NCBI RefSeq assembly: GCF_001699815.1
Contig: NZ_MCGB01000061.1
Coordinates: forward strand, 248,001-312,000
Direction of reading: 5' to 3'
DNA: 64,000 bases
Origin: Ralstonia pickettii
GTDB taxonomy: Bacteria; Pseudomonadota; Gammaproteobacteria; Burkholderiales; Burkholderiaceae
The translations under genes and the position numbers were made by a program. Shown one piece after another: positions 3,046-49,708 of this stretch. The notes under the pieces were generated by a model. That model searched no databases. It was not told the DNA's origin and saw only the letters and a program-made list of their open reading frames with translations. Each line of letters begins with the position of its first letter. The first letter of the stretch is position 1.

Positions 3046-3197
3046 GGATTTGTATGGATCGCGGCACTCGCACGAGCAGGCACCGCTTTGAATGAGTGGA
3101 ATGACCGCGCGCCCTTACGTGACAACGTTACGCGCGGCGATAAAAAGTTGGGGGCGATGATACCGCACTGGCTCGACGCCCGGCCCGCGAAATACGC

Positions 3198-4396: not shown

Positions 4397-4403
4397 ATGA
4401 GAT

Positions 4404-24765: not shown

Positions 24766-24865
24766 TCTACATTGATGCCGGGGGTCGAGCCGAGTGTCGA
24801 GCCGGTGGCCGTTCACGGACACATAGATTGAGATTCCGATCTCCATAAAAACAAGGGGCTAGAAA

Positions 24866-24944
24866 AATCTCAGACAAATCGTGGGGATTGATCGTGACAG
24901 TTGACCTGAGATTCCGCGACTCCCAGGACACATATGCTGAGATT
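24866..24944. repeat. Three copies of CTGAGATT near the putative left end of the element
   Basis: Copies are at 24866-24873 (inverted), 24906-24913 and 24937-24944. Short repeats close to an end are typical of TnsB-binding arrays in Tn7-like elements, but I found no matching array near 37.2-37.7 kb. Assignment as a transposon end is therefore tentative. Confidence 0.3.
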
Positions 24945-26351: not shown

Positions 26352-27047
26352 CTATGGAATGATCGTCGACCACCACGCCGGCACGTTTTCGTGTTGGGCC
26401 AGTACCGAACCGGTCTTTATGATGGCTACGGGCCGATGGGTATGCTGCCCGTCGTCACGATCCCGTGAGTTATCAAAGAACATCGCCAAGTGTACGATTT
26501 GTAGAGCTTTCTGCGCGTTGGCGAAGACGCGCGTGAACCGCATTTGCTGAACGTCGGAAGGTACGTCATGCCCTCCCGTCGCAACTCGACGGTGAACGCG
26601 CTCTTGGGCAAGATCGACGTCATTTACACCAACAAACAGCATCACAACGTAGTAGCCTGCGTCCACTCCACGTTGCAATTCGGCGAGCTTGTAACCGTAC
26701 GCGTCCGAAAACACAGTTTCGTAAACGAAATGGCATTGCGCACCAGGGTGAGCAGATAATTTCAGTCCGCGACGACGCGTTGCTTCGGATTGCGCCAGAC
26801 GGGCAGTCTCCGGCGTCTGCGGAGCATTCGGATCGTCCTGCGCCGCCTCGTTCAGCTCACGCTCAATCTCGTCGGCGTTGATGTACTCAGCCTCCAACGC
26901 GCCCTCGAGCATCGGCTCGAGCAATTGACGCCACAGCGTGGTCTTGCCCGCCCCATTGGGACCGGCGATCATGACCATCACTGGTTTAGTTCCCGCGCCT
27001 GCGCTGAGCTCGTCAAGGAACGCGTTGAAAAGCTGCTCACCCGTCAA
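26352..27047 (-). CDS. Zeta-toxin-like P-loop kinase
   Basis: 231 aa. The Walker A motif is AGPNGAGKTT (28-37), followed by EAEYINADEIERELN, the zeta/PezT region in which an Asp binds the sugar-nucleotide. Later features are HFVYETVFSD (substrate-side E-T-V-F-S) and the LVGVNDVDLAQERVHRRVATGGHDVP-type region with basic catalytic residues. Zeta toxins phosphorylate UDP-N-acetylglucosamine or related sugars; other members act as kinases without toxicity. Its ATG overlaps the stop of the HTH gene by four bases (ATGA), so expression is coupled to that putative antitoxin. Confidence 0.85.
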   Translation of the reverse strand: MTGEQLFNAFLDELSAGAGTKPVMVMIAGPNGAGKTTLWRQLLEPMLEGALEAEYINADEIERELNEAAQDDPNAPQTPETARLAQSEATRRRGLKLSAHPGAQCHFVYETVFSDAYGYKLAELQRGVDAGYYVVMLFVGVNDVDLAQERVHRRVATGGHDVPSDVQQMRFTRVFANAQKALQIVHLAMFFDNSRDRDDGQHTHRPVAIIKTGSVLAQHENVPAWWSTIIP

Positions 27048-27727
27048 TCCAGATCCATCCCGAACTTGCCCGCGTTCTTCCGCAGGTTTTCGATACTCTT
27101 CTTCAATGCGACGTGTTGCTCAGCGCGATGCTGCTGGATACGCGTGGCTGGGTTGGTCGCTCGCGCCAGCAGTTCATACACCTGCGCGAATTCGCCAGAA
27201 TCCAGCTGAGATGCACTGAGCATCTGTAACAGCGTCGTGTTTCGCCCTGGAATTGGTTCGACCAAGTATTTTCCTGCCAGCGGTGCATAGTTGCCCCATT
27301 GCTTGGCGAGCTGGTACAAGCGCCACAAGCGGGTGCGATTGGACAGATTGAGTTTTTCCATCCGTTCGGTGCGCAGCCATGCGTAGACTGTGATGCGCTC
27401 GATATGCAGGACTTGTGCGAGTTGTGTGACGTTGAGCCCGAAAGCCCGGCGCAATTCCTCCACCATCTCAGCCGGCGTTGTCAGCGTCGGTTCGGACTGA
27501 CGCTGCAAGGAACCGAGTTTGAAAGGTAGTGGCACAGCAGCGTTGATGCTTGTCCCAAGGTATTGCCGGATGTCGTTAAGATCGATGACGACGGTCGGCA
27601 CTGCCGTGCCACAGTCGACCAATATGGCTGTCACCTGCCGAACACTGGTGGCCCCGGATTGATGCCACATCGCGTTGGATCCGATCGTCCTACCCAACTT
27701 CGCGTCACGCTCGGAAGCGTAAATCAT
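27044..27727 (-). CDS. Helix-turn-helix protein, probable antitoxin/regulator of the zeta-like kinase
   Basis: 227 aa from ATG 27727, chosen because it overlaps the upstream stop as ATGA; the frame remains open further upstream. The N-terminal half (MIYASERDAKLGRTIG ... VPTVVIDLNDIRQYLG) has no clear family. The HTH lies at about 96-118: FGLNVTQLAQVLHIERITVYAWL. A charged C-terminus follows (HVALKKSIENLRKNAGKFG). Position between a TIGR04255 protein and a zeta kinase suggests a DNA-binding antitoxin that autoregulates the operon; this is inference. Confidence 0.75.
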   Translation of the reverse strand: MIYASERDAKLGRTIGSNAMWHQSGATSVRQVTAILVDCGTAVPTVVIDLNDIRQYLGTSINAAVPLPFKLGSLQRQSEPTLTTPAEMVEELRRAFGLNVTQLAQVLHIERITVYAWLRTERMEKLNLSNRTRLWRLYQLAKQWGNYAPLAGKYLVEPIPGRNTTLLQMLSASQLDSGEFAQVYELLARATNPATRIQQHRAEQHVALKKSIENLRKNAGKFGMDLD

Positions 27728-28560
27728 GCATTGTCTCCTCTCGCTGCTTCGGGACCCCATTCGCACCGCGCCAGCGGCGTAATCATGGCGCGAAACGCCG
27801 ACGATACGTCGGTGTGCATTTGGGTAAACAGCTGGCTCAGTGTCGCCCGATCGGCCCGGTGCTCGCCGTCAACCCATCGGTCGCTATCAATCACGCCGCA
27901 CTCTCCAGGCGCTGGCGCCGACTGCTGACGCGGACTCAGCATTCCCTGCAAGTCCATCGGCAACGACGGCACGCCAAATCCACGCATGAACTGCAGGCGC
28001 ATTCTGCCGGCGGGATAGGCGACGTCCACCATGGAAACGTGTAGATCTGGCCCGCGCATAGCGCCAGGCAGCTTTGGCATCTCGTTCAGGTTCCATGGCG
28101 CGTTGACATAGTCTTCTGGCCTCCGGCCATGCTGAGGCACCAGAAAATCGACGTAGCGCAGGCCGAGTCGCGTTACGGTGCTCACCTGTACATCATCGAG
28201 TGCATTGGTGATGTCGAGCCACGCCTCCCGAAAGTGAGACGAGTCAACGTACGACGTAACGGCATACGTGAGCGCACCTTGCTGCACACGAACCATCGCG
28301 TCCACGTCGTTATTGACGAGGTCGTAAGCAACCTCATGGGTAGCCCGCGGCAGGCTGGGCGCCGCATCAAGATTGATCTCGATACTCACGCCAGTGGTCT
28401 GACTAATAGTCGGAAAGTGAGCTCCGATCCGCTTCACGATCGCGTCGCGCAAATGTTCCGGAGCTGCTGCCGCATTCGGTAGAAATCGAACCTGGGCGAG
28501 TACAAAAACCAAGGGCGCGTTCGCCCACTGCCCCTTGCGGGGGGTGGTATCGCTAACCAA
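27724..28560 (-). CDS. TIGR04255-family protein
   Basis: About 278 aa from TTG 28560, which follows AAAGGAGG by only four bases; an ATG at 28590 would add ten residues. Sequence features of the family are the N-terminal APLVFVLAQVRF, a middle SYVDSSHFREAWLDITNAL, TRLGLRYVDFL, and the C-terminal DRATLSQLFTQMHTDVSSAFRAMIT followed by W-G-P. TIGR04255 proteins occur sporadically in mobile DNA, often beside HTH or toxin genes; their biochemical role is not established. It is the first gene of a three-gene operon with ATGA overlaps at both junctions and diverges from the ubiquitin-like cassette. Confidence 0.8.
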   Translation of the reverse strand: MVSDTTPRKGQWANAPLVFVLAQVRFLPNAAAAPEHLRDAIVKRIGAHFPTISQTTGVSIEINLDAAPSLPRATHEVAYDLVNNDVDAMVRVQQGALTYAVTSYVDSSHFREAWLDITNALDDVQVSTVTRLGLRYVDFLVPQHGRRPEDYVNAPWNLNEMPKLPGAMRGPDLHVSMVDVAYPAGRMRLQFMRGFGVPSLPMDLQGMLSPRQQSAPAPGECGVIDSDRWVDGEHRADRATLSQLFTQMHTDVSSAFRAMITPLARCEWGPEAARGDNA

Positions 28561-28688
28561 ACAGCCTCCTTTCTCAATGATCCAAAACAAGATTTTACAC
28601 GGGACTTTACACCTAACAGAACATCTGACACACTGATATCATCTTACACAAGATCTAACAGTCCGATCTGTTTGATGGGAGTCACGCC
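28561..28688. promoter_or_regulatory. Shared divergent promoter with repeated TTACAC and CTAACAG motifs
   Basis: TTACAC occurs at 28595-28600, 28607-28612 and 28644-28649. CTAACAG occurs at 28613-28619 and 28655-28661, so a TTACAC...CTAACAG unit is present twice. The interval is AT-richer than the genes and separates two divergent operons. The repeats are candidate operators, possibly for the HTH protein. Confidence 0.5.
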
Positions 28689-28946
28689 ATGACTAATGCA
28701 GCGCAGCACGCGACGAAAATCATCATCAATCTCGACGAAATCGAGGTGCACCAGGAGAAGCTGACATATGCGCAGCTGGTGCACCTGGCCTACCCGCAGG
28801 ATCCGCCTGCGGATACGTCGGATTTCATCTACACAGTCACGGTCACCTACCCGGACGGGGAAAGCCTCTCGCTGGCGCGGGGAGATAAGCCAGTGCTGGT
28901 CAAGGAAGGGATGGTGTGCCATGTCCGCAAAACCGGTCGTTCTTGA
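28689..28946 (+). CDS. Single-unit multiubiquitin-type beta-grasp protein
   Basis: 85 aa, ATG 28689, with GATGGGAG upstream. The sequence after IIINLDEIEVHQEKLTYAQL, the hydrophobic spacing of YTVTVTYPDG and the ending VLVKEGMVCHVRKTGRS match one repeat of the Multi_ubiq (PF14452-type) beta-grasp family. This family is known from operons with ThiF/E1 enzymes. It has one copy, no obvious tandem, and no C-terminal di-glycine; it ends TGRS. It overlaps the E1-like gene by 26 bases. Confidence 0.75.
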   Translation: MTNAAQHATKIIINLDEIEVHQEKLTYAQLVHLAYPQDPPADTSDFIYTVTVTYPDGESLSLARGDKPVLVKEGMVCHVRKTGRS

Positions 28947-30123
28947 CTCAGTGCTCGCACCGTTCCTTGCGGCGGGGCTGCGAGTAACGGTGCAGGGGGC
29001 GCACCTGCTTCTGCACGACGTGCCCGTGGTCGACAACCAGAGGCAACTGCGGCTGGGCACCCTCGTCGCGACGCTCGTCTATACCGACAGCCAGGTGACA
29101 CCACCGGCGACCCATCAAGCGTGGTTCGATGGCCCGTTCCCTTGCTTCGCGAACGGCTCCACGATGGAGCAGTTGCGACACACGGACGTGGCGGGGGGAA
29201 TCGTGGCTCCTGGCGTTCCGGCCAAGTTCTTCTTCTCGAACAAGGATGACGGCTGGACGAGTTACGCCACCCACTTTGACCAACTGATGCACTACTGGCG
29301 GATCATCACGGACCAAGCGCGAGTAATTGATCCAGACTGCACCCGCCCCTTGGGTCCTGGGTCGTCGCTGGTGGCACCTCGAACGGACCCATTCCGCTAT
29401 CCGGACGCCTGCTCAGCGCGCGGAAACTTCGTGATGGTCTCAGAGCGGCTAGCGAATCTCCGCATTGCAATCGTGGGGCTGGGCGGGACGGGGTCCTATG
29501 TGCTCGACCAAGTAGCCAAGACGCCGGTACGTGAGATCCACCTGTTCGACGGCGATGTCTTCGAGGTCCACAACGCCTTCCGGGCGCCCGCGGCAGCCAG
29601 TGAATCTGATTTCGGCAAGACCAAGGTTGCGTACTTCTCCGCGCTGTATGAACCTATGCGGACAAGCATCATCGAACATCCTGCGTACGTGACGGAAGTC
29701 AATGTTGGACTGCTCGGGCAGTTTGACTTCGTGTTCGTCTGTGTAGACAAGGGGCCCGCGCGGAGATTGATCTGCTCCCATCTCATCGACCAGGGCGTGC
29801 CCTTTATCGACTGTGGTATGGACATGTCGCTGTCTACCGCGCAGCAGATCTTTGGTACGTGTCGAGTCACAATAGCCACGCCAGCAAGGAACAAGCACTT
29901 CTTCGATCGCGCTCCAACGATGGAAGATGCCGGTGATGCGCTGTACGACCAGAACATTCAGATTGCTGACGCCAACGCCCTCAACGCTATCCTCGCCGTC
30001 ATGCGTTGGAAGCAGCACTTCGGCTTCTATGCGATGAATTGGGACTGGCACCACCTCGAATTTGCCACCAGTGCGATGGCTTTGGCGAGGGCCGAGAGAT
30101 CAGAGGGAACGGATGCGAATTGA
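28921..30123 (+). CDS. ThiF/E1-like adenylating enzyme with unknown N-terminal domain
   Basis: 400 aa from ATG 28921 within the beta-grasp gene; the frame is open further upstream, but that part is only the shadow of the upstream gene. Residues 1-175 form a domain of the type found fused to ThiF proteins (DUF6791-like), containing HHxxxDGPFPC-type residues as AWFDGPFPCFANG. The Rossmann E1 domain begins RIAIVGLGGTGSYVLDQV (GxGGTGS at 186-192), with Asp210 in LFDGDVFEVHNAFR contacting ATP by family analogy. Candidate catalytic cysteines are Cys298 (IDCGM) and Cys314. It probably adenylates the neighbouring beta-grasp protein. Confidence 0.82.
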   Translation: MSAKPVVLDSVLAPFLAAGLRVTVQGAHLLLHDVPVVDNQRQLRLGTLVATLVYTDSQVTPPATHQAWFDGPFPCFANGSTMEQLRHTDVAGGIVAPGVPAKFFFSNKDDGWTSYATHFDQLMHYWRIITDQARVIDPDCTRPLGPGSSLVAPRTDPFRYPDACSARGNFVMVSERLANLRIAIVGLGGTGSYVLDQVAKTPVREIHLFDGDVFEVHNAFRAPAAASESDFGKTKVAYFSALYEPMRTSIIEHPAYVTEVNVGLLGQFDFVFVCVDKGPARRLICSHLIDQGVPFIDCGMDMSLSTAQQIFGTCRVTIATPARNKHFFDRAPTMEDAGDALYDQNIQIADANALNAILAVMRWKQHFGFYAMNWDWHHLEFATSAMALARAERSEGTDAN

Positions 30124-30574
30124 CCGAATCACGCCAGAGCTGGTCGAACTTGCGCCCCGGGTGTTGCAACCAGGGCGACTCTACATCAGCGAGAAGTACC
30201 AAGCGGCTGTACACCTCTGCTGCTGCGGATGCGGAGAAAAGGTCGTGACCCCGCTCTCGCCTGCGGAATGGCAGATTAAGTTGACAAATGGGCGCGCTAC
30301 GCTGCATCCCTCGATCGGGAATTGGTCGATGGCCTGTCAGTCGCATTACTTCATCCGCGGCAACCAAGTGGTCTGGAGCGGGCAACTGTCGAAGAGGCAG
30401 ATCAAGGCCGTCTTTGAACGTGACTTGCGGGATCTGCAAGCGATGCATCGTGGCACCGAGGAGCCGCGTGCGAAAGAGCTGGGCGCCCCAAGTCCCGCCA
30501 CGTTTGAGCATGAACGGCCGTGCACCGGTTGGCGCGCGCGACTAAAGGCGTTCTGGCAATGGCTGACTCGCTGA
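30113..30574 (+). CDS. DUF6527-type cysteine-containing protein of the ubiquitin-like cassette
   Basis: 153 aa from ATG 30113, overlapping the E1-like gene by 11 bases, with GAGGGAACGG upstream. The N-terminal LQPGRLYISEKYQAAVHLCCCGCGEKVVTPLSPAEW, read in parts, contains a CxCGCG knuckle. With the later SIGNWSMACQSHYFIRGNQVVW this gives the Cys/His pattern of DUF6527, a family repeatedly found with multiubiquitin and ThiF genes. A metal site C-x-C-x-C plus C-x-x-H is visible. Its role (adaptor, E2/E3-like factor or protease substitute) is unknown. Confidence 0.75.
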   Translation: MRIDRITPELVELAPRVLQPGRLYISEKYQAAVHLCCCGCGEKVVTPLSPAEWQIKLTNGRATLHPSIGNWSMACQSHYFIRGNQVVWSGQLSKRQIKAVFERDLRDLQAMHRGTEEPRAKELGAPSPATFEHERPCTGWRARLKAFWQWLTR

Positions 30575-31173: not shown

Positions 31174-33258
31174 CTAACTCACGGCGGTTGGCCGGACTCC
31201 TACCCCCTCCAGTTTGCGAATGTCCGCGAGCGCGTAGAACTTGACGCTACGCGCTTTCCCGAACGTCACCGACTGGATCTCACCGCGGCTCTCCAGATTG
31301 GGGAGGTGACCCCGGTGGCTTCCGAGCAAGCCGCCAGCCTCCTCCGCAGTGAGGTACTCCGCCCGCATTTCTTGCAGGCGTTCAATGTCCGCACGGTGAA
31401 TACGTCGCGAGACCGTCAGATTCACCACAGGAAGAAGCCCGGACTGGATGTATGTCACTTCCAGCGCCCTTTTTCCCACACCAAGGATTGCCGAGACGGC
31501 TTCTACGGGCACGAGCTCCGGGTCATCCAGCATTGCCTTGAAGCGTTGTACGGATCGCCTTGTCACCAGCACAGACCTGGATAGGCCCTTCACTTCCCGC
31601 AGATGATGGTCCACCACCAGGCGCTTGGCGGTCTGGACGCTGACGCCGATCAGCTCCGCAGCGTCTGCAAGAGGCATCTCTAAGCGTTCTCTCTTGACGC
31701 CTTCGCCAGCCGGCTTACGCCCCGTAGACGTCGGGTACCCCTTCAAGCTACGCAACGTGTCGAGATCAAGGCGATCAACGCGGTCTCGCTCGAACATGTA
31801 GACGAGACTGCCATCAATTTTTGGACCCGCAACGGCTGGCACACCAAGCGCCATCAGCCTTTCCGCCGTGCTGGTTACACCGGTATTGGCGCGCTTGGCG
31901 ACCTCTCCGGCAAAAACATACTTCCGAGCGAAACGCTCGACCACGCCTTGACTGGTTACAAGCCGCTTCCGATTGGCTCCGTCCCTATCCCGATACTCAA
32001 GCCATCCCGCCCTTGCAAGAAAGCGAACAACCTCAGGATAGGTGCCCAGGATTTCGGCGACCTTTTCGACGCCGATCTCATCGGTGCTGTCAGGGGCCGG
32101 ATTCCGTGGCGTCGCATGGACGGAACGAAGACTGCTGAGCCCGGCGCTCAAATCATATCCAGCGCTGTGCTCGCGCCCTTCGGTAATCGCCCTGAGTACC
32201 GATGCCACACCGCGCGTGACAGCCCGCGAAGCGCAGGTCGACTCGGCCAGGTTTGCGGTCAAGGCGCTCAGCATTGCGTTCGCCGCGACGGCGCTGTATC
32301 CGCCCCTGCCGATTTTCAGTTGATATGCTTCCAAGACTCCATCTCTCTCCAGCTTCGTCAACTGACTGGCACTAAGTCCGAGAGCGAGCTGGATCTGCTT
32401 GCTTGATAATCTTCGTTCGCATTGGTCAGCGCCGACCGACCTCTCGCCTGATGTCGAGCGAAGAATCTCCAGTGCCAACGCCCGTACCGTATTGGATGCC
32501 GCCTCCAGGAGGGGAAGCAGCGTGATACGCGGGTGCCAGGGCGAGTTATGCACTAGCGCTTGGACCTCGGTTGACACAACGCCCTCCTCGCCCCATCGGC
32601 GCGCGCTGCTGAGCAACTCCAAGAAACCATCACGGTGCTCCAGCGCAAAGAGAGCAGCGACACACGCCGCAGCCTCGCCAGCTCGCGGCTCCCCAGCGCG
32701 CATCTCGCCCATCCACCAGTCTACGGCCGACTTATCGGCCAGCACCGGTTGGGCATCGGCAAGATTGGCTCCGCACCTGCAAGTGCAAAGCGAACCACGC
32801 AGAGGAGACAGTGCCTTCTTGCATGCGTGGCAGTCTCGTAGCATGTACACCGAATGCACTTGGCATACCAAGTAAGGTTCGAGCGCCCAGTGCTTCCGGA
32901 AATAGCGCTGCTCGGCAAGGCAGATTGGGCAGTATGCGCGGCAGTCCTCGGAGAAGAATCGCTCTCCATACGGGACACCATCAATCAGTCGCGGGGTTTC
33001 CGCGGTGGGCCCCACACGCTCAAAGCTCAATGAGAGGGCATTCGGATCGCCGACTCCACACAACTGGAGAATCTCTGCGTAGCGATCCGCGCGCGTATAG
33101 GCCGCTGTGATCCACCCCTCATCCGCCTTGCCAGCAAAATGACCGTCAATCATCGCGGTCACGCTCGGAAACCCATTTCCTTCGGCGATGCGTATCAAGT
33201 ACCCCGCGGGTGACTCGTCGGGAAACGGAATGGGACGAACTGGAAGTTTGCGCCCCAT
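31174..33258 (-). CDS. tniQ: TniQ/TnsD target-site selection protein with tandem HTH array
   Basis: 694 aa. The N-terminal TniQ domain begins PFPDESPAGYLIRIAEGNGF. It contains the zinc ligands YCPICLAE (110-113), CQVH (132-135), CHAC (143-146) and CTCRC (158-162). From about 284 to 684 I see six successive excisionase/MerR-like helix-turn-helix units at roughly 50-residue spacing. Examples are LGLSASQLTKLERDGVL, LGTYPEVVRFLARAGWL, IGVSVQTAKRLVVDHHL, LGVGKRALEVTYIQSGLL and LLGSHRGHLPNLESRGEI. By analogy with TnsD, this protein reads a chromosomal attachment site and recruits TnsC. It starts one base after the tnsC stop. Confidence 0.88.
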   Translation of the reverse strand: MGRKLPVRPIPFPDESPAGYLIRIAEGNGFPSVTAMIDGHFAGKADEGWITAAYTRADRYAEILQLCGVGDPNALSLSFERVGPTAETPRLIDGVPYGERFFSEDCRAYCPICLAEQRYFRKHWALEPYLVCQVHSVYMLRDCHACKKALSPLRGSLCTCRCGANLADAQPVLADKSAVDWWMGEMRAGEPRAGEAAACVAALFALEHRDGFLELLSSARRWGEEGVVSTEVQALVHNSPWHPRITLLPLLEAASNTVRALALEILRSTSGERSVGADQCERRLSSKQIQLALGLSASQLTKLERDGVLEAYQLKIGRGGYSAVAANAMLSALTANLAESTCASRAVTRGVASVLRAITEGREHSAGYDLSAGLSSLRSVHATPRNPAPDSTDEIGVEKVAEILGTYPEVVRFLARAGWLEYRDRDGANRKRLVTSQGVVERFARKYVFAGEVAKRANTGVTSTAERLMALGVPAVAGPKIDGSLVYMFERDRVDRLDLDTLRSLKGYPTSTGRKPAGEGVKRERLEMPLADAAELIGVSVQTAKRLVVDHHLREVKGLSRSVLVTRRSVQRFKAMLDDPELVPVEAVSAILGVGKRALEVTYIQSGLLPVVNLTVSRRIHRADIERLQEMRAEYLTAEEAGGLLGSHRGHLPNLESRGEIQSVTFGKARSVKFYALADIRKLEGVGVRPTAVS

Positions 33259-33259
33259 G

Positions 33260-34243
33260 TCACCCCCGAAACGCTGCAGCCAAAGTCGGGCCGCTCATCG
33301 TGAACGGGTTCTGCTTGGTCACGGACAGCGCCGCAAATATGCCGGTGTCCCAGACAGATGCCAAATCCGTCTTGGTGATGACATCACGCCCCCCAAGCAA
33401 TGTGTGACGGGCGGCCACCTTCAGAAGTGTGGAAACGTAGTCAATGTTCCCCCTTGTCGCGGCGAACACCCGCAGTGCCAAGCCATACTCGCTGAAGCTC
33501 GGCGTGGATTTGATCGAAGTACGCTCAACGATCTTGCTGGCCAAGACACCAAGAAAACGCTGGAGCTCTCCCGGTTCGTCGGCTGTTCCCGGGTGCAGCG
33601 GCGTCAACATGAACTTGCTTTTGTAGCGCCGGGACATCTGCGTATCTTTGTCGAAGATGGTCTTGCACTCATCGGTCCCGACCAGGCAGATCACGGGCCC
33701 CTCCGCATTGAACAGTTCCTTAAGCCAATTGCAGATGGCTTGCCCGGCCCTGGCGTCCTTTTTTTGGATCACTGAAAGGTTGTGCAATTCGTCGATAAAA
33801 ACGATGGTGGTCCTGCAGCGCTTGAGCAGCGTGTTGATTCGTTTGGATCGAGACACAGGTGAACCAGCGAGCGGGTTGACGTCGTTCAGCTTGGCAAGCA
33901 TCTCTTCGGTCAAGCCATCCAGCCTCCCCTCCGGAGGCAAACTCATATAGAAGGCAGGCATGGTGTCGATCTCACAATCGTTCTCCACGACAGTTTGAGG
34001 TGCCATCCCCGTCATGATCAAGTTGGCGATCGTCGTCTTTCCCATGCCACCGTCGCCCAGCAACATGCAGCACTCTGGCGTGCGCGAGGCAACGGAGGCC
34101 TTGATGCATCCCTTGATGCCCGTGACAGCATTGGATAGGGCCGGGTGGAGAACGACAATGCGGTCCAGCTCTGCTGCCTCTCTATAGGCGTTGCGTTCAG
34201 CCTCGGACTCGAACAGAGTGTTTGCGTGGTCAAATGGAAGCAT
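33260..34243 (-). CDS. tnsC: TnsC/TniB AAA+ transposition regulator
   Basis: 327 aa. Walker A GDGGMGKTT (63-71) and Walker B TIVFIDELHNL (146-156, Asp151/Glu152) mark the AAA+ ATPase. The conserved ICLVGTDEC segment with a following arginine-rich YKSKF region suits sensor and arginine-finger roles. In Tn7-like systems TnsC connects the target selector (TniQ/TnsD) to the transposase and confers target immunity. Located between tnsB and tniQ with 9- and 1-base gaps. Confidence 0.92.
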   Translation of the reverse strand: MLPFDHANTLFESEAERNAYREAAELDRIVVLHPALSNAVTGIKGCIKASVASRTPECCMLLGDGGMGKTTIANLIMTGMAPQTVVENDCEIDTMPAFYMSLPPEGRLDGLTEEMLAKLNDVNPLAGSPVSRSKRINTLLKRCRTTIVFIDELHNLSVIQKKDARAGQAICNWLKELFNAEGPVICLVGTDECKTIFDKDTQMSRRYKSKFMLTPLHPGTADEPGELQRFLGVLASKIVERTSIKSTPSFSEYGLALRVFAATRGNIDYVSTLLKVAARHTLLGGRDVITKTDLASVWDTGIFAALSVTKQNPFTMSGPTLAAAFRG

Positions 34244-34252
34244 GCGTCGTCC

Positions 34253-36265
34253 TTAGTCGAGAATGATTGCGTCCAGCGAAAGGTTGCCGAAGTGATTGAG
34301 TCCGTTGACGGCAGCCTTTGACGGACCCGGCTTGGCCGGCAGAACCTCACCGGTATCAGGATCAATCCGTTCAGTCTGTTCAGAAGGCTCCGGTTTGCCC
34401 GCAACCTCGTCAATTCGAGACGTCAAGACAACCGAGGAGGAGGCTACGACCTTTGCGACATCCTTGGATCGTTGCTCAAGCTCCTTCTTGCCCTCCTTCA
34501 GACGTTTTATCTGCTTCGTCGCGAACGCTGAGTCCTTCTGGATCCGCATCATCAGCTGATATAGCGCGTAGATGGGAGCGTTTTCCCCCAACTCCCTGCG
34601 GTCCCGCTCCGTCATATCGCCCAGGATCCGCTTGGCCTCGCGATGAGCCCACTTGGTGAGGCCCTTCGTGTATTCGGGGTTCGTCGACGTCGCCGTGATG
34701 ACGGCGCCCTTCTCCAAAGGGTGTTCGACGTACACCTTGTCCAGATCCAGTTCGTCGATAAGAACCACAACCTGCCCCTTGTATTGGTGCTCAAGGGAAC
34801 GCAACGCATGGCTGTACCAGATCAGGCCGTCATGACGAATCCGCCCTCCGTTAGGCGTAACGCGGATCACCGTGCGTGCAATGACGTTGACCTCTTCTTC
34901 CGACATGGTGAGCGGCGTGCATTTTCCGGGAGCGGTCTCCTCCTTCCACATCATGATGGGCGCCCTACCAGTGCTCGAGTGTTGTTGCTTGTGGTAAACC
35001 TCCTCGATCCATTCATGCACATAGGAACGGACCTGTTCGAGCGTATGGCAGGCCCGGCCAGCCGAATCATAGGAGCCACGCTCTGCCGGGTTCGAGAAAG
35101 TCGTGCCAGGCAGCGTCTGAATGAGGCTTCTTGTGAAGGTACGAAAGAATGACTCGATGTGGGGCTTGTGATTGGGCTCCCGAATCGCAGCCGGTTCAAT
35201 GATGACGTTGGCCTTGAGCAGCAGGCGCATGACGGCAGAGTTCTTGAACTCGGTGCCATTGTCAGGAACGAGATGCACACAGATGCCCCCAGGCAAGCCG
35301 CGTGACGGCCGCGTGAACATGTCTTTGACGACAGCAAGCGTTGTCACCGTGGATGGTGGATGCATACTGAGATGCCAGCCTACGACGCAACGTGTTCGCA
35401 CATCGATCGCAAGGGCAAGCGTCGGTCGCCCGATCACATCGCGCGTCGACTCGTCGACCACCAGCACATCAAGCACATGAGAATCGATCTGCACGATATA
35501 CATCGGCATATGGGCAAGATGTGACCGACCGCCGGCCCGTACAGCACGCTCGGCAGCAATTGACCCGTCCTTGACGCGCTTGAGAAGGAACGGATCCACC
35601 TTGTTGATCCGGCGCCGGAGGGTTCGTTCGGATGGGGCTTTGATTCCAGACATACAGTGCTCCAGTAAGTATCCATGTACATAGGCCAGGACGTTCTTCG
35701 AAGAACGTCTTTCCGCTCGCATAAAGTCCGCGATTCCCTCCTGAATGCCAGCTTCGACCCCCACATCGAATCGAAGCGTGTAGTTCCCCTTCGGCGGTGG
35801 TCGCGCCAGGAAGTACTCTTCCCCGAAATCGCGCAGAACCTTGACCCACCGCGCAACGGAACTCGCTCCCGGTACATTCGGGTCTCCGATGCGCGCGGCG
35901 TACGATGCAATCCACTCGGAAAGGAAGGCGCGCCCGGTGGGCTTGGCCAGTTCAGCAACCGCCCCCTGCGCGTACCGCAGTTGCCGAAAACGGCGCTGCA
36001 GCTCCGGGGAGGAGAGGTTCAGGTACGGCGACTCCTGAATTGCTTTGGACTCGCTGGTGACAACGATCGCGCCGCTGCGGATCTCCTCCTGAAGGCGAAC
36101 CAAGGGGATCCTTCGGCTCGTGCCACCCGCGACCGCGTTGTAGCGCACGTCTCCGTACGCGACGTGCGCGATTTCAAATTCACTGCCGCGGTAGCAGAAG
36201 CGCACGCCAACCCGAGCAACGAACTCGGGCGTGTACTCCTGCTGATGTTGGACAATCTCGCTCAT
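34253..36265 (-). CDS. tnsB: TnsB/TniA DDE transposase (Mu-type rve integrase fold)
   Basis: 670 aa. The N-terminal two thirds contain HTH-like DNA-binding regions (IKAPSERTLRRRINKVDPFLLKR). The catalytic core has Asp261 (MYIVQIDSHVLDVLV), Asp335 (HLVPDNGTEFKNS) and Glu371 (KPHIESFFRTF), the full DDE triad. A Mu-transposase C-terminal beta-barrel follows, then a variable tail rich in Lys/Glu and Pro (DPDTGEVLPAKPGPSKAA), which would contact TnsC as in Tn7. TnsB binds the transposon ends and carries out 3' cleavage and strand transfer. Confidence 0.93.
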   Translation of the reverse strand: MSEIVQHQQEYTPEFVARVGVRFCYRGSEFEIAHVAYGDVRYNAVAGGTSRRIPLVRLQEEIRSGAIVVTSESKAIQESPYLNLSSPELQRRFRQLRYAQGAVAELAKPTGRAFLSEWIASYAARIGDPNVPGASSVARWVKVLRDFGEEYFLARPPPKGNYTLRFDVGVEAGIQEGIADFMRAERRSSKNVLAYVHGYLLEHCMSGIKAPSERTLRRRINKVDPFLLKRVKDGSIAAERAVRAGGRSHLAHMPMYIVQIDSHVLDVLVVDESTRDVIGRPTLALAIDVRTRCVVGWHLSMHPPSTVTTLAVVKDMFTRPSRGLPGGICVHLVPDNGTEFKNSAVMRLLLKANVIIEPAAIREPNHKPHIESFFRTFTRSLIQTLPGTTFSNPAERGSYDSAGRACHTLEQVRSYVHEWIEEVYHKQQHSSTGRAPIMMWKEETAPGKCTPLTMSEEEVNVIARTVIRVTPNGGRIRHDGLIWYSHALRSLEHQYKGQVVVLIDELDLDKVYVEHPLEKGAVITATSTNPEYTKGLTKWAHREAKRILGDMTERDRRELGENAPIYALYQLMMRIQKDSAFATKQIKRLKEGKKELEQRSKDVAKVVASSSVVLTSRIDEVAGKPEPSEQTERIDPDTGEVLPAKPGPSKAAVNGLNHFGNLSLDAIILD

Positions 36266-36423: not shown

Positions 36424-37194
36424 TCATTTCCATACCGTTGCTCCCATATCGAAAGGTTTCTCCCAATCGATCTTGAGTACGCCGACGAAGAGCAGATGTT
36501 TGGCGACATCACCGAGTGCTTCGACCAGCGTCTGATAGGGGCATGGCAGCAGCGAAGGAATCGCTGCAAGCGCATGCTCGATCTCGAACTTGGAGGGGAT
36601 GCGTGCGTAGCTGTGGTGGATGGACTTGAAGTGCTGTAGCGCGAGATCTGATGGCAACTCGTCGCGATCGACGAGGGCGTAGTCAACGCCGACGCGGGAC
36701 AGGAATGTGTCAACCCACTCGACCTTGCTGCGATAGTCGTCCGTGAGGAAGTTCTTGCTGTGCTTCACCTCCCGGACAAAGATCCGACCTCGATCATCGA
36801 GGATCAGAAAATCTGGCCAATGCGCTCGTCCCCCCGGGATTTCAATTGAGATCGCTTGGGTGCGGTACGCGACGACGCTCGGATGGCGCTCAAGGCAGAG
36901 CGCATAGGCCTGCTCTAGTCGGCTCTCGACCGGCATGTACACCGCCACATGGGAGGCTGCCGCGTTCTTCTTGCTGGGAAAGAGGGACGAACGGGACCCA
37001 CCACGTTTCCCCAAACGAACGATGCGGCCGCCATGCAGCCGTGCGGCAAGATCGGGCCTGCGGGAAAATGCGTGCTGGACGCCTTTCAGGAACTCCTCTC
37101 GAAGCTGCCACTCCAGCGTTCCCCGGATACGGAATGCAGCGTCAAGCCGTGACACGTGACTCGTTGCGGTGAAATCGAGCTCAATGGTTTGCAT
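36424..37194 (-). CDS. tnsA: TnsA endonuclease
   Basis: 256 aa. The restriction-endonuclease-like core shows ESRLEQAYALCLERHPSV (Glu90), the metal-binding HWPDFLIL (Asp128) and REVKHSKN (Glu142, Lys144), the PD-(D/E)xK catalytic set of TnsA. A C-terminal winged-helix region follows and would contact TnsC. TnsA makes the 5' strand cuts that allow cut-and-paste movement, so this element is not restricted to replicative transposition as TnsA-less relatives are. A 158-base gap separates it from tnsB. Confidence 0.9.
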   Translation of the reverse strand: MQTIELDFTATSHVSRLDAAFRIRGTLEWQLREEFLKGVQHAFSRRPDLAARLHGGRIVRLGKRGGSRSSLFPSKKNAAASHVAVYMPVESRLEQAYALCLERHPSVVAYRTQAISIEIPGGRAHWPDFLILDDRGRIFVREVKHSKNFLTDDYRSKVEWVDTFLSRVGVDYALVDRDELPSDLALQHFKSIHHSYARIPSKFEIEHALAAIPSLLPCPYQTLVEALGDVAKHLLFVGVLKIDWEKPFDMGATVWK

Positions 37195-43536: not shown

Positions 43537-44523
43537 ATTGAAAATTTCTAAAAATGTTAATTAATCTATTTAAAACAAATACGATTGCTGGCGCGTCTCA
43601 CTTCGGCATCCCGCCCATTTATTTGATTGTTCAGATAGTGCACTATATATAATTTTGAAATTTCTTAGAACTAAGTACTTTTCCATTGCCACGGCAAACA
43701 TAGATTTCGCACACTTTGCCTTGGCAATTTGTTTGGCCGAAACACGAGACGAGGATGCTTTTTCCTCATAGCGGGCGCTAGGAAAGCACAGGCCCCTTTT
43801 GAAGTCCTTTCATCGGTGAACTTGCAAGGGCTCTCTATTCAAATCGTCTATTGGATGGCGTCCAATTAATTGAATTTGTGGTTCATCGTGCACAGTGATG
43901 ATCATCCTCACGCGTGAACACGCCCAGGAGCGAGCTATGAGCGCCTCGTCGCAAGTTGCATCACTGGCATTCGAGCTTCCGAATGCAGAGGGGACCATCG
44001 CGCACCATCGATGAGCCAGCCAAGGAAGTCGGTTTGTAGGTCGGCCTTACTTGGCCATCGCGCTACGGGCACCCCAGAGCGTCGGCGCCCGCCGTGTAGA
44101 CACTAGCGTGTCCTAGAAAGCCCCTGACTACCGCACGTAGATGCCATATGGGCAAGGCTTGGCGATTTCAATGCTCGTATCGCTAGAGAGCCACAGTAAG
44201 AAGATTGACTACCAATCTATGGCGATTTCGAGGAGGCGGGTTCATGCCACATAGAGGCGAGCTGGTATGCATGTCACTCTTGTTCTTTCGAGAATATTTT
44301 CATTTACATAGGAATTACGAACAAATTTGGTGCATTTGTCAATTTGATTCTCATTGTTTTGAAAAAACATGTTGGATATCAGGAGAATGAAAGAAATCTT
44401 CTCAAGGCTACTCGGGCACCACCGTTAGCGTGCATGGCACATCTAAGATAAGTGATGCGATGTTGCTGCGAAGTGGGTCTTCGCTTGGTCACTTTGAATT
44501 TTAATGTAGAAGGTGGATCTACT
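43537..44523. other. AT-rich interval upstream of the flagellin gene
   Basis: About 990 bases between divergent amine oxidase and flagellin genes. No gene is supported. It is AT-rich and must carry the flagellin promoter, but I saw no clear sigma-28 (TAAA/GCCGATAA) or sigma-54 (TGGCAC/TTGCA) match. The last bases contain GAAGGTGG, the flagellin ribosome-binding site. Confidence 0.4.
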
Positions 44524-45345
44524 ATGCCTATTAGCCTCAACACCAACGTTTCATCTCTGCAGACGCAACAAGCACTGTCTCAATCCAGATCAGCTTTGGA
44601 AACCTCTCTGCAGCGTTTGTCGACGGGCCTGCGTGTGAATAGCGCCAAGGATGACGCGGCCGCTTACGCGGTGGCCAGCAGCCTGACCACCACGCTGAAC
44701 TCGCAAACGCAGGGTATTCAGAACGCGAACAATGCGTTGTCGTACTTGCAGACGGCAGATTCGTACATGGGACAGGTTGAAAACAACCTGCAGCGCATGC
44801 GCCAGCTAGCCGTTGAAGCCAACAACGGTGGCCTGTCGACGACTGATCAGGCCAACCTTGACAAGGAATTTCAAGTGCTGGCTTCGGCCAACAAGAACAT
44901 CCAGTCGAACGCGAACTACAACGGCGCAAAGCTGTTTGACGGGACGGTGACGTCCACCACGTTCCAGTATGGGCAAAACGCCACAACGGATGTCGCGACC
45001 ATTTCCAACGCCAACTTGTCGAGCTTTGGGACGCTAAGCGGGACAAGTGTTACTTCGGCGTCGAATGCTACGGCTGCGCAGTCGAAGATCGACTCGGACC
45101 TTGTTAGCTTGAAGGCCGCACGCGCCAACCTTGGCGCTCAGCAAAGCGGACTGAACTCGACGATCAGCACGTTGACATCGTCAAACACCGCGCTTGCGGC
45201 TGCAAAGTCGACCATGATCGATACCGATTACGCGGCTGAAACATCGAACATGACCCGACAAAACATCCTACAGCAAGCCGGCACGGCAATGCTCGCACAA
45301 GCCAATGCCGCCCCAAATAGCATTCTGAATCTTCTCAAAGGCTGA
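44524..45345 (+). CDS. fliC: Flagellin
   Basis: 273 aa from ATG 44524 (MPISLNTNVSSLQTQQALS), with AAGGTGG upstream; the longer open frame upstream is not used. The N-terminal D0/D1 domain (SLQRLSTGLRVNSAKDDAAAYAVASSL) and C-terminal D1/D0 (MTRQNILQQAGTAMLAQANAAPNSILNLLKG, in two halves) are complete. The surface-exposed D2/D3 region is almost absent, only about 60 Ser/Thr-rich residues. Flagellin is exported by the flagellar type III apparatus and forms the filament. This copy is isolated from any core flagellar operon in the window. Confidence 0.9.
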   Translation: MPISLNTNVSSLQTQQALSQSRSALETSLQRLSTGLRVNSAKDDAAAYAVASSLTTTLNSQTQGIQNANNALSYLQTADSYMGQVENNLQRMRQLAVEANNGGLSTTDQANLDKEFQVLASANKNIQSNANYNGAKLFDGTVTSTTFQYGQNATTDVATISNANLSSFGTLSGTSVTSASNATAAQSKIDSDLVSLKAARANLGAQQSGLNSTISTLTSSNTALAAAKSTMIDTDYAAETSNMTRQNILQQAGTAMLAQANAAPNSILNLLKG

Positions 45346-45702
45346 CCGTACGACGTGATGAAGTGCTGGTGGTCCCTGCGGGATCATCAGCGCGGTTGGT
45401 GTGCATTAGGGTGCCGGATTGAAAGGGAGGCTATAGCAGCCTTAGCATGCCAAGGCATTCGATCGCTGGCGATGTGCGGCCCGTCCGAGCGTGCATTCCT
45501 TCGCCTTCCCTTCAAGAACGCTGCCCATTGTGGCCACTTGATAGGCAAGCCACAAGCAATACCGGCCACCGCGGAGCGACCCCTGGGGTGTTCAACTCGA
45601 TGTCTTAAAAAGCAGCATCGAAACTTAAGAATGCGGAAGATGTTAGTGGGTAGTTGGTGCCGAGTTGGGAAGAACAATCATCCAAACTAAAGTGAGAGAG
45701 TC
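45346..45702. other. Interval between flagellin and hook genes
   Basis: 357 bases. A weak hairpin (GCTGGTGGTCCC/GGGATCATCAGC) lies about 20 bases after the flagellin stop and could attenuate transcription. Open frames here show no similarity to known families. Confidence 0.35.
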
Positions 45703-46908
45703 ATGGGATTTCAGCAAGGATTGAGCGGCCTCGATGCAGCATCAAAGAACCTCAGTTCCATTGGTAGCAACGTTGCAAACGTAAATACAGTCGGTTACAA
45801 AAAATCGACCGTTCAATTCGGTGATGTATACGCTCGCTCTTTGGTGGGGGCTACGGACAATCAGATTGGTCAGGGTGTAAGTGTGACCAGAGTTTCTCAA
45901 TCGTTTACTCAGGGCAACGTTACCGTTACCGGCAACCCACTCGACATCGCAATCAATGGCATGGGTTTCTACCGCATGGTTGATTCGTCAAGTGGTCAAG
46001 TTTCGTATACGCGCAACGGCCAATTTCAGACGGATAAGAACGGTTTCGTTATCTCCGCCACTGGTCAAAATTTGACTGGCTACGGTGTAGATGCGAGCGG
46101 CAAGGTGAACACCGCAGCTTTGACAAACCTCAGAATTCCCGTAAACGATCTGGTACCGCAAGCGACAAGAAACACAGCATTTGGTGTCAATCTGAATGCG
46201 GCAGCGGCGGTTCCGGGAGCTACGCCGTTCTCGCCAACCAACTCGGCGACGTTCAACCATTCCGTATCGGAACAGGTGTACGACGGCACTGGCGCACCTC
46301 ACATGATGACCAACTACTACGTCCGCACGGGTGCCGGTTGGAAGGTGTATTCGCAGGTGGACGGCACCAGTCCTGTCAGCGGCAATCCGGTTACAACTCT
46401 AACGTTCAATAGCAACGGGCAATTGACCTCAGGCTCCACCAAGATTGCGGTGTCTTTCCCCGGCATGTCTATCAATAGCATCGATTTTGCCGGGACAACG
46501 CAGTATGGGGGAGGTTACAACGACGTGATGGTTAAGCAAGACGGTTATGCGACGGGGCGCTTGGCTAGCTATTCGGTCGGAATCGACGGTACTGTTACTG
46601 GTCAGTACTCAAACGGGCGAAGCGCCGTGTTTGGACAAATCGCGATGGCAAACTTTAAAGCCCCTGAGGGATTGCAGAATATTGGCGGCAATCAATGGGT
46701 GGAGACAGCAAATTCGGGGTCGCCTAACTTAGGAACGCCGGGTATGGGGTCATTTGGTCTTTTGAGGTCTTCCGCAGTAGAGCAATCGAATGTGGATCTA
46801 AGTGTCGAGCTGGTCAACATGATTGTGGCCCAGCGCTCGTATCAAGCGAACGCACAAACAATAAAAACGGAGGATTCTCTTTTGCAGACGCTGGTTAGTA
46901 TTCGCTAA
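45703..46908 (+). CDS. flgE: Flagellar hook protein FlgE
   Basis: 401 aa. The N-terminal flagellar rod/hook motif is SGLDAASKNLSSIGSNVANVNTVGYKKS, with the hook-specific QGNVTVTGNPLDIAINGMGFYRM. A middle FlgE domain follows, then the C-terminal LVNMIVAQRSYQANAQTIKTEDSLLQTLVSI, the conserved export/assembly helix. It forms the flexible hook between rod and filament. Codon use is somewhat less GC-biased than the core genes. Start ATG 45703 follows GTGAGAGAG. Confidence 0.9.
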   Translation: MGFQQGLSGLDAASKNLSSIGSNVANVNTVGYKKSTVQFGDVYARSLVGATDNQIGQGVSVTRVSQSFTQGNVTVTGNPLDIAINGMGFYRMVDSSSGQVSYTRNGQFQTDKNGFVISATGQNLTGYGVDASGKVNTAALTNLRIPVNDLVPQATRNTAFGVNLNAAAAVPGATPFSPTNSATFNHSVSEQVYDGTGAPHMMTNYYVRTGAGWKVYSQVDGTSPVSGNPVTTLTFNSNGQLTSGSTKIAVSFPGMSINSIDFAGTTQYGGGYNDVMVKQDGYATGRLASYSVGIDGTVTGQYSNGRSAVFGQIAMANFKAPEGLQNIGGNQWVETANSGSPNLGTPGMGSFGLLRSSAVEQSNVDLSVELVNMIVAQRSYQANAQTIKTEDSLLQTLVSIR

Positions 46909-46954
46909 CCAATATTTCTTAGAGTAGTAGTGTGTAGGTTATAAAGGACCAAGC

Positions 46955-47740
46955 ATGATTCGTTCTTTGTGGATCTCAAAAACTGGAATGGAGGCCCAAC
47001 AAACGCAACTAGACGTTGTCTCCAACAATCTGGCAAACGTTAATACCACGGGCTTCAAGCGCTCGCGTGCCGTGTTCGAGGACCTGCTGTATCAGAACGC
47101 GCGCGAGCCGGGGGCCCAGTCGTCACAACAAACGGCGTTGCCTTCGGGCATGCAGATCGGTACCGGCACGCGGATTGTGGCCACCTCGCGTTTGCATTCG
47201 CAAGGCAATCTTTCAAAAACTGGCAATGCGACGGACGTAGCCATCAACGGCAATGGCTTCTTCCAAGTGCAAAGACCTGACGGCACGCTGGCCTACACAC
47301 GAGACGGCAACTTCCAGATCAGCGCGCAGGGGCAACTCGTGACCTCAAGCGGCTATTTGGTGCAGCCTGCCATGATGGTGCCGCGCAATGCCACGAGCTT
47401 GATGATTGGCAAAGACGGTGTTGTTACGGTTACGACGCCAGGTATGGTCAATCGAACGCAAGTGGGGGCGTTTCAACTCGCCAATTTCGTCAATCCGGCC
47501 GGCTTGCGTAGTCTGGGAGAGAACCTGTATGCCGAGACTGAAGCTTCGGGCGGTGCAAACCTAGCTGTCCCAGGAGGCAATGGTTTAGGCATGCTCCACC
47601 AGAACTATGTTGAAACGTCCAATGTGAACGTGGTGGAGGAAATGATTCAGCTGATCCAAACGCAACGCGCGTATGAGATCAACAGCAAAGCTGTGCAGAC
47701 AGCCGACCGCATGCTTGAGAAGATAGCACAACTCAAATAA
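46955..47740 (+). CDS. flgG: Flagellar distal rod protein FlgG
   Basis: 261 aa, the standard FlgG length. It starts [41 protein letters not shown], diagnostic of FlgG, and continues with [31 protein letters not shown]. It ends [38 protein letters not shown]. It forms the distal rod that crosses the outer membrane. It follows flgE by 46 bases with no flgF between them, unlike complete flagellar operons where flgF and flgG are adjacent. Confidence 0.92.
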
Positions 47741-47782
47741 GGAAACGTGATTCCGACGATGCGCATTCATTTCTAGGCAAAC

Positions 47783-49708
47783 ATGAGTTCTTCTCTTCTG
47801 AACATCGGGGCTTCTGGCTTGCGCACGGCTGGCATCCATCTGCAGGTGATAGGCAGTAACATCGCCAACGTCAATACGCCGGGCTATTCACGTCAAGAAG
47901 TTGTCCAAACGGAGAATCCCCCACACTACGGTGGCGTTGGCGATCTCGGGCAAGGTGCGAACGTCGCCACAGTGAAGCGCATCTACGATCAGTTCCTGGC
48001 CGCGCAGGTGCAGAGTAGTCAGGCGGCCGCTAGCTCAGCAAACCAACTCAACAGCCTGCTGAGCAATCTAAGTCAGTTCATGTCGGACCGCAACAGTGGG
48101 CTTAGTTCGGCACTGACAAGCTTCTTCGATGCTGCGGACGGATTGGTCTCCAAGCCATCGGATGCAACAGCACGTCATGTATTCCTAGGTGCGATATCAG
48201 GTTTGCAGAGTCGCTTTAACTTGATTGCCGAACAAGCGAGCGCGCTGGCAGATCAGGTCAACAGCCAAGTACAAACTCAGATTGGCGCTGTTAACGGTGC
48301 CGTGCGCCAGATCGCCTCGCTGAATGACCAGATTGTCAAGGCAGAGAGCTCTGCAGGCGCCCCCGCAAATGATCTGCGCGACCAGCGTGACCAGCTAGTG
48401 CAGACGCTCAATCAATCGATCAAAGCGAGTTCAGTGGAGACCAGCGACGGCCAGTACAACATCTACGTCGGAAACGGGCAGGCACTTGTGCAAGGCAATC
48501 GGAGTTTCGAGTTGACGACGGTGCCATCGCCGTACGACCCATCTCAGCTTTCGGTTGGCTACAAGAGCCCCGCCGGTACGGTCATCGTTGACGATGCGCA
48601 GTTGGGTGGAGGGGCCCTGGGCGGCCTGATGGAGTTCCGCAGCAAAACACTTATTCAGGCGCAGAACGGCGTGGGTCGGTTGGCCGCAGCTATATCTGCC
48701 GAGGTGAACGCCCAAAGCAGGCTGGGCATGGACGCCAACGGAAAAATGGGCGGCGACATCTTTTCGGTCGCTGGCCCCAGTGTTATGCCCCGCAGCGACA
48801 ACCGCGGCAGCGCCACACTTACCGCCAGCATCACCAATGCCACCGCTACACCAGCCCATGACTACCAACTCCGGTATCAAGGCGGTGTCTATACTGTTTC
48901 ACGCTATCCAGATGGCTCAAAGGCCACCGTGGTGACGACTTGGCCGGCCACCGTCGACGGCATCAGGTTGAACCTGTCGGGCACGATGCACAGCGGCGAT
49001 TCGTTCTTGGTCCGCCCAACAGCCAATGCGGCGGCCACCATGAAAGTGCTGACCACTGACTACAGGACCATCGCGGCTTCATCTGCCGTGGTGGCAGATG
49101 TCGGCGGCAACAATAGGGGTAGTGGAGCTGTGACGTCTGTTGGTATTAATGTGGTGGCCTTCCCCGCGGCGGCCGTGAAGCTGACCTACAACGCATCTGC
49201 TGGAGGCTCGCTCACAGGTTTCCCAGGAAGTGTGACTGTCACATTTAACGGCAAGTCGACCACGTACGCCGGCTCGGCACCCTATGTGCAAGGAGCGACG
49301 TACGCGTTCAATGGCATCCACATGATGATGACGGGAGCGCCAGCCAACGGCGACACGTTCAAGCTGTCGCCAAATGTCGCCAACAGCACCGACAGTGGGA
49401 ACGCCAGCACGTTGGCCAAGCTACGCAACGCCTCCCTGCTTGACGGCGGTACCGTATCTGTTGGTGCGGCTTGGCACAACCTCGTAACGCAGGTGGGCAT
49501 TCAAGCTCACCAAGCCGCTGGCAACTTAACCTCCCAGACGGTGCTGCACAGAAGCGCGGTGTCGCAGCAACAGGCGGTTTCTGGTGTGAATCTCGATGAA
49601 GAGGCGATGAAATTGATGCAATATCAGAAAGCTTATCAAGCATCGGCAAAAGTCATGCAGACTGCGAACTCGCTTTTTGATACCTTGTTATCAATGCACG
49701 GCCGATAA
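47783..49708 (+). CDS. flgK: Flagellar hook-associated protein 1 FlgK
   Basis: 641 aa. The N-terminus SSLLNIGASGLRTAGIHLQVIGSNIANVNTPGYSRQEVV is typical. The conserved GVGDLGQGANVATVKRIYDQFL follows, with long central domains. The C-terminus reads SGVNLDEEAMKLMQYQKAYQASAKVMQTANSLFDTLLSM. HAP1 joins hook and filament. In complete systems flgL follows; here an amine oxidase gene follows instead, so no hook-filament junction partner HAP3 is encoded in this cluster. Confidence 0.92.
   Translation: MSSSLLNIGASGLRTAGIHLQVIGSNIANVNTPGYSRQEVVQTENPPHYGGVGDLGQGANVATVKRIYDQFLAAQVQSSQAAASSANQLNSLLSNLSQFMSDRNSGLSSALTSFFDAADGLVSKPSDATARHVFLGAISGLQSRFNLIAEQASALADQVNSQVQTQIGAVNGAVRQIASLNDQIVKAESSAGAPANDLRDQRDQLVQTLNQSIKASSVETSDGQYNIYVGNGQALVQGNRSFELTTVPSPYDPSQLSVGYKSPAGTVIVDDAQLGGGALGGLMEFRSKTLIQAQNGVGRLAAAISAEVNAQSRLGMDANGKMGGDIFSVAGPSVMPRSDNRGSATLTASITNATATPAHDYQLRYQGGVYTVSRYPDGSKATVVTTWPATVDGIRLNLSGTMHSGDSFLVRPTANAAATMKVLTTDYRTIAASSAVVADVGGNNRGSGAVTSVGINVVAFPAAAVKLTYNASAGGSLTGFPGSVTVTFNGKSTTYAGSAPYVQGATYAFNGIHMMMTGAPANGDTFKLSPNVANSTDSGNASTLAKLRNASLLDGGTVSVGAAWHNLVTQVGIQAHQAAGNLTSQTVLHRSAVSQQQAVSGVNLDEEAMKLMQYQKAYQASAKVMQTANSLFDTLLSMHGR

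Follow-up and report, generated by a model that had tools for sequence, protein, structure and literature searches.

The stretch of Ralstonia pickettii DNA analysed here, 64,000 nt of contig NZ_MCGB01000061.1 (positions 248,001 to 312,000 of the forward strand; hereafter the window), carries on its forward strand a cassette of three overlapping genes for a ubiquitin-like protein (Ubl), an E1-like enzyme and a DUF6527 protein. The first gene (28689..28946) encodes a single-unit multiubiquitin-type Ubl of 85 amino acids with the C-terminus VRKTGRS (PF14452 Multi_ubiq, 32.2 bits against a cut-off of 24.5). The second (28921..30123) encodes a 400 amino acid E1-like enzyme composed of a DUF6791 domain (residues 16-162; PF20590, 100.5 bits) and a ThiF adenylation module (PF00899, 61.4 bits), both above the Pfam cut-offs; in NCBIfam it belongs to NF004804 (PRK06153.1-3, a "hypothetical protein" equivalog; 662.9 bits, cut-off 340). 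The third (30113..30574) encodes a 153 amino acid protein of PF20137 (DUF6527, 83.9 bits, above cut-off). The end of the Ubl gene and the start of the E1 gene overlap by 26 nt (28921..28946, forward strand), and the E1 and DUF6527 genes overlap by 11 nt. These coordinates and the Pfam and NCBIfam matches bear out the genes, overlaps and families proposed in a preliminary description of the locus, and the profile search which it had suggested indeed places the 85 amino acid protein in PF14452. Its readings of an intact GxGGTGS motif and Asp210 in the E1 (GLGGTGS and D210 are both there), of a TGRS tail without terminal glycine and of a lack of E2 and JAB peptidase also hold, neither the E2 nor the JAB hidden Markov model (HMM) giving a match in the window. 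PF14452, PF20590 and PF20137 each occur in single copy in this genome. Among sixteen genomes of the genus, including this one, the cassette version was found only here; one other genome carries a relative of 31% identity, and the other matches extend little beyond part of the ThiF module.

Relatives were collected by scanning genome contigs with a profile of the E1, which gave at least 559 confirmed relatives; the best 80 of these at least 559 were kept, picked by the E1 alone, and together with loci L003-L011 and the window they make up the 90 loci compared here. The DNA available per locus was 10 kb or more in 71 of 90 and less than 6 kb in eight, and absences hold within that DNA. The E1 alignment (n=80) holds the window and 79 of the 80 survey loci (L078, an apparent duplicate of L075, was omitted), the DUF6527 alignment (n=78) omits L014, L040 and L078, and set A8 has n=45. 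The survey loci derive from Pseudomonadota, Bacteroidota, Acidobacteria, Actinomycetota, Verrucomicrobia, Planctomycetes, Nitrospirae and others, with two records titled archaeal, and the E1s vary widely, the 80 aligned ones falling into 74 clusters at 90% identity with a lowest pairwise identity of 34%. Throughout the 90 loci the order is Ubl, DUF6791-ThiF E1, DUF6527, with the genes directly adjacent, and in 46 of them the Ubl reading frame spans at most 130 amino acids from stop to stop, the size expected of one unit. The absence of E2 and JAB, the single Ubl unit and the tail without Gly-Gly, which the preliminary description had regarded as unusual, are therefore family traits; the class is known though uncharacterised, and the cassette is an unexceptional representative of it.

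The C-terminal residue of the Ubl is serine in 90 of 90 loci, preceded by T-x-[K/R/Q] (K 43, R 37, Q 10), with threonine at -4 in 87 and valine at -7 in 86 of the 90. The first base of the serine codon, which is the wobble base in the E1 frame, is T in all 90 loci, and the third base may be any of the four, so that all TCN codons are used; this argues that the serine is held by selection on the Ubl itself. In 89 of 90 loci the Ubl and E1 genes overlap by exactly 26 nt; the E1 start codons are ATG (80), GTG (7) and TTG (2), with one exception (L029). RefSeq gene calls show the same overlap in five out of five annotated plasmids (L007-L011, part of the 90), as do all seven complete DUF6791-type loci drawn via PF14452 and not via the E1, whose species may overlap with those of the 80 (L098, which breaks off within the Ubl, was omitted). 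At the E1/DUF6527 junction the 90 loci show thirteen different values, the commonest being 4 nt (51/90). Two strict regularities mark the class, the terminal serine and the constant overlap, and they hint at unusual chemistry.

In the E1, residues G186, G188, G189, G191, D210, R221, K235 and D276 are invariant in all 80 aligned sequences, D276 being presumably the equivalent of the catalytic aspartate of MoeB. No cysteine is invariant among the 80, and S106, Y160 and Y342 are. Structural matches of the ThiF module include BubCD, ThiF, UBA5 and MccB. For the DUF6791 domain AlphaFold2 (AF2) predicts, mostly at high predicted local distance difference test (pLDDT) values, a helix (6-17), strands at 21-25, 28-37, 43-51 and 67-70, smaller strands and a long C-terminal helix (118-136). 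No Pfam E2 model matches the E1 of the window, and in the comparison with CBASS and Bil systems the 25 PADLOC E1-E2 models match it in the ThiF part only.

The DUF6527 protein has a predicted metal site, C36-x3-C40...C75-x2-H78 plus H34, whose five residues are invariant in 78 of 78 aligned sequences; P-S-x-G at 66-69 is also kept. The spacing is C-x3-C-x34-C-x2-H in 73 of the 78, with x38 in four and x33 in one. The predicted structure has a largely beta domain and then helices, and the search of the PDB gave no convincing match for this protein. In L008, a Methylomonas plasmid locus, the DUF6527 gene is cut short (6192-6368) and lacks the latter half of the metal site; the gene annotated directly behind it is an IS256 transposase gene.

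Loss in the window of an E2 and a JAB otherwise always kept, which the preliminary description had considered, is not the pattern observed, as each HMM matches in one of the 90 loci, the same one (L072). On this contig, titled uncultured archaeon, a separate operon of Ubl, E2 and JAB-E1 (frames 2465-4594 on the reverse complement) lies beside the cassette on the other strand. In canonical loci, of which fourteen were compared, the Ubl comes first, followed by the E2 (or fused to it), then JAB-E1 and usually DUF6527. The latter is found in ten of the fourteen by profile A3, with L122 added by Pfam and L139 by annotation, and was not found in L123 and L125. Because DUF6527 accompanies E2 and JAB in canonical loci, the role of E2 stand-in which had been suggested for it is unlikely. 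The end region of the Ubl shows glycine in eleven of the fourteen canonical loci: TTEG or TTAG, terminal, extended or E2-fused, in nine (L124, L135-L142), and PP-x-x-FG plus one or two residues in L122 and L126. A second PF14452 frame in the genome of L126 (L104) ends in PPTAFG plus seven residues, and in L121 the boundary of the Ubl fusion is not clear. L123 (2070-4256) and homologues in L125 encode a JAB-E1 subtype with an HVHNH/AVHNH motif, possibly intermediate between the glycine-ended and the serine-ended branches.

Among described systems the closest is operon type 6e of Iyer et al. 2006 (PMC1779556), in which, according to the passages on this type, a metal-binding protein and an E1 go together with one to three Ub-like repeats. 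The E1 is as a rule fused to a JAB, but in a subset to an uncharacterised N-terminal domain (domain X) instead. Judged by sequence, the cassette fits this subset, predicted as a class in 2006, and from its description domain X would be DUF6791. As far as the account of the 6e variant with domain X goes, the number of Ubl repeats, the E1 with an N-terminal domain unrelated to JAB, the metal-binding partner and a sporadic and mobile distribution are shared with the cassette. The cassette differs from the 6e row in having no separate E2/RWD gene, although an inactive E2/RWD-like protein is not stated there for every variant, and the 6e signature of the metal-binding protein, C-x3-C-x(35-38)-H-x2-C, has its last pair reversed (C-x2-H) in the DUF6527 proteins studied here. 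Section 14 and related passages of Iyer et al. 2006 make no mention of the serine end or the fixed overlap.

The Bub system of Citrobacter (BubA, BubB, BubCD; PDB 9ea4, 9ea5, 9ea8, 9eae, 9eav) has a closely similar ThiF module, and Bub-related loci share with the cassette the PF14452 Ubl, the DUF6527 partner and helix-turn-helix (HTH) plus IrrE or WYL regulators. Unlike Bub, where BubB is present and a JAB is fused to the E1 (BubCD), the cassette has neither and carries DUF6791 instead. BubB is here taken to be the E2. Phage protection by Bub operons has not been demonstrated (PMC13373217). The ZDHYS365 multi-ubiquitin domain protein of PDB 9cd2 also belongs to this Ubl family (E 1.7e-26 against its profile) and ends in TDKS, but is composed of several units whereas the Ubl of the window has one.

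On balance we lean towards reading the cassette as a self-contained unit for activation, and probably conjugation, of the Ubl, a peptidase-free sister of the canonical multiubiquitin (class 6e/Bub) operons. Two parts of this are supported by the sequence comparison: the Ubl is encoded with its final end, the invariant serine, leaving nothing for a peptidase to expose, and the 26 nt overlap links the last codons of the Ubl with the first ones of the E1. The ThiF module may then adenylate the carboxylate of the serine. To our knowledge every characterised ubiquitin-like modifier is activated at a C-terminal glycine. E1-like enzymes can nevertheless use another end, since MccB adenylates the C-terminal asparagine of a peptide, the substrate for microcin C7, in a system with no Ubl and no DUF6527. 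With no conserved cysteine in the E1, the acyl group might move directly or via an oxygen ester, with S106, Y342 and Y160 as candidates, and DUF6791 could be a built-in transfer or acceptor-binding domain, a transfer role for the E1's N-terminal domain having also been suggested in the preliminary description; these two steps are the less secure ones. DUF6527 may be a metal-binding factor for specificity or release, common to the canonical loci. A wider claim, which we put forward tentatively and with some doubt, is that of a widespread cysteine-free Ubl pathway in which the Ubl is activated and attached by way of its fixed C-terminal serine, with a transfer domain built unrecognised into the E1 and no peptidase; if so, the modification would have no dedicated JAB eraser. 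A Ubl that ends in serine across many phyla, beside an E1 whose adenylation site is intact and which has no conserved cysteine, makes Ubl transfer without glycine and without thioesters a testable question, and the test is simple, as a single small plasmid can hold all three genes. A phage defence role is plausible; that the cassette responds to stress or phage is a guess.

Several results weigh against this reading. The E2 and JAB HMMs matched fourteen and thirteen of the fourteen canonical control loci, respectively, but twelve (E2) and ten (JAB) of these had supplied sequences to the training alignments, so that only two and three of the matches are independent. The Ubls of L123 and L125, from the other JAB subtype, end in serine (DDNS and HEDS), hence a serine end is not exclusive to DUF6791 loci and a strict rule is weakened. 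The test for Shine-Dalgarno coupling at the overlap was null (52/74 against 47.0 expected; in Bacteroidota 3/16 against 5.3). C75, the sole frequent cysteine of DUF6791, is present in just 71 of 80 E1s, and the alignment does not show Y342 to correspond to the tyrosine changed in the BubCD mutant 9eav. DUF6791 has no convincing match in the PDB, and its profile-profile comparison with Prok-E2_E (hhalign) gave a probability of about 0.1%, i.e. no sequence link to E2. In the literature found, no conjugate, target or activity of the DUF6791 variant is reported.

The alternative that survives best, though we would still bet against it, is that DUF6791 is itself a diverged domain of E2/RWD type on the E1, which would thus contain its own E2, like the fused E2-E1 proteins of classes 6a-6c. 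The order of helices and strands in the AF2 model of DUF6791 matches the order which we take to be that of the UBC/RWD fold, but the hhalign result speaks against it, and the matches of the fold search came mostly from the ThiF part. In its favour, the E2s of 6e operons likewise lack the cysteine according to a passage in Iyer et al. 2006 (PMC1779556).

Rather unlikely, in comparison with the conjugation unit proposed above, is that the E1 adenylates the Ubl end to yield a modified polypeptide or nucleotide adduct, a signal or toxin, with no protein conjugation. MccB, which as an E1-like structural match of the window E1 offers the precedent, acts on a short peptide, whereas the Ubl of the cassette shares its Pfam family with Ubls from operons that include E2 and JAB, and DUF6527 is common to operons having an E2. 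Supply of E2 and peptidase in trans, from the host genome or another element, is improbable: a Prok-JAB match above cut-off does lie on another contig of this genome (a second is below cut-off) and the E2 and JAB-E1 operon of L072 adjoins its cassette, but Prok-E2_E has no match in this genome, 89 of the 90 loci have neither nearby and the invariant end needs no trimming. A sulfur-carrier pair like ThiS/MoaD with ThiF/MoeB, suggested by the ThiF core, is hardly tenable given the serine instead of glycine in 90 of 90 Ubls and the lack of thiamin or molybdopterin families in the 18 scanned window proteins (bar the ThiF match of the E1) and among the 25 of 47 upstream families listed.

Upstream of the cassettes 150 of 152 open reading frames from 79 loci were classified, some loci giving none and two frames of L091 being omitted; these include HTH_3 (23), IrrE-type peptidases (21) and WYL proteins (6). 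A passage of PMC4963859 states that 70% of PF14452 proteins adjoin toxin-antitoxin-type loci with a COG2856/DUF955 protein. In the window the seat held elsewhere by HTH and IrrE peptidase genes is occupied by a divergent trio on the reverse strand: a TIGR04255 family gene of uncertain start codon (27724..28590; 146.8 bits), an HTH protein (27044..27724; weak matches below cut-off) and a zeta-toxin-like P-loop protein (26352..27047; PF06414, 34.8 bits, cut-off 22.3). Homologues adjoin the cassette in seven, six and seven of the 80 loci, respectively; TIGR04255 and the zeta-like gene recur in L012-L014, L025, L028, L035 and L050 at identities down to about 32-35%. The trio is possibly an alternative regulator or a toxin-antitoxin module. 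In two close relatives the cassette adjoins a SIR2-like gene (L012, 8948-9613) and an EcoRII-type restriction-modification pair (L013, 8845-11744), which is a defence-island setting.

The cassette had been described as cargo of a Tn7-like element, and this is supported by the transposition genes, the end repeats and a break in synteny. On the reverse strand are found genes for a TniQ/TnsD-like protein (31174..33258; PF06527, 64.7 bits, cut-off 27), a TniB/TnsC-like ATPase (33260..34243; PF05621, 74.1 bits, cut-off 22.4), a TnsB-like transposase (34253..36265; Mu-transpos_C, 20.8 bits, below the cut-off of 21.7, with rve and IS3/IS481-type matches also below cut-off) and, as a weak match, a TnsA-like endonuclease (36424..37194; PF08722, 21.8 bits, below the cut-off of 26.5). 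Two GGACACATANNNTGAGA repeats on the forward strand (at 24817 and 24926, spanning 24817..24942) mark the left end of the island, and three copies in inverted orientation its right end (contig 336582-336641). With up to two mismatches no further copy was found in the window or L168, L167 not being searched with the pattern. The pattern was picked after it had been seen; two copies were reached in 3 of 100 shuffles of the window and three copies in 0 of 200 shuffles of L168. With TniQ and TniB clear, TnsA and TnsB just below their cut-offs and the end repeats inverted, the Tn7-like reading holds. Synteny with five relatives of the same genus ends at window 24790-24809, and what follows in one of them (L151) reappears at contig 336652. 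The island thus measures about 63.8 kb (window 24803 to contig 336651) and lies next to the 3' end of a gene that we read, from its final codons, as nrdB. The cassette is not bound to this element, since the available flanks of the 80 loci have no homologues of the window's transposition genes at E <= 1e-10. Inside the island, at window 44452-49708, genes resembling those for flagellin and flagellar hook or rod proteins were read by eye.
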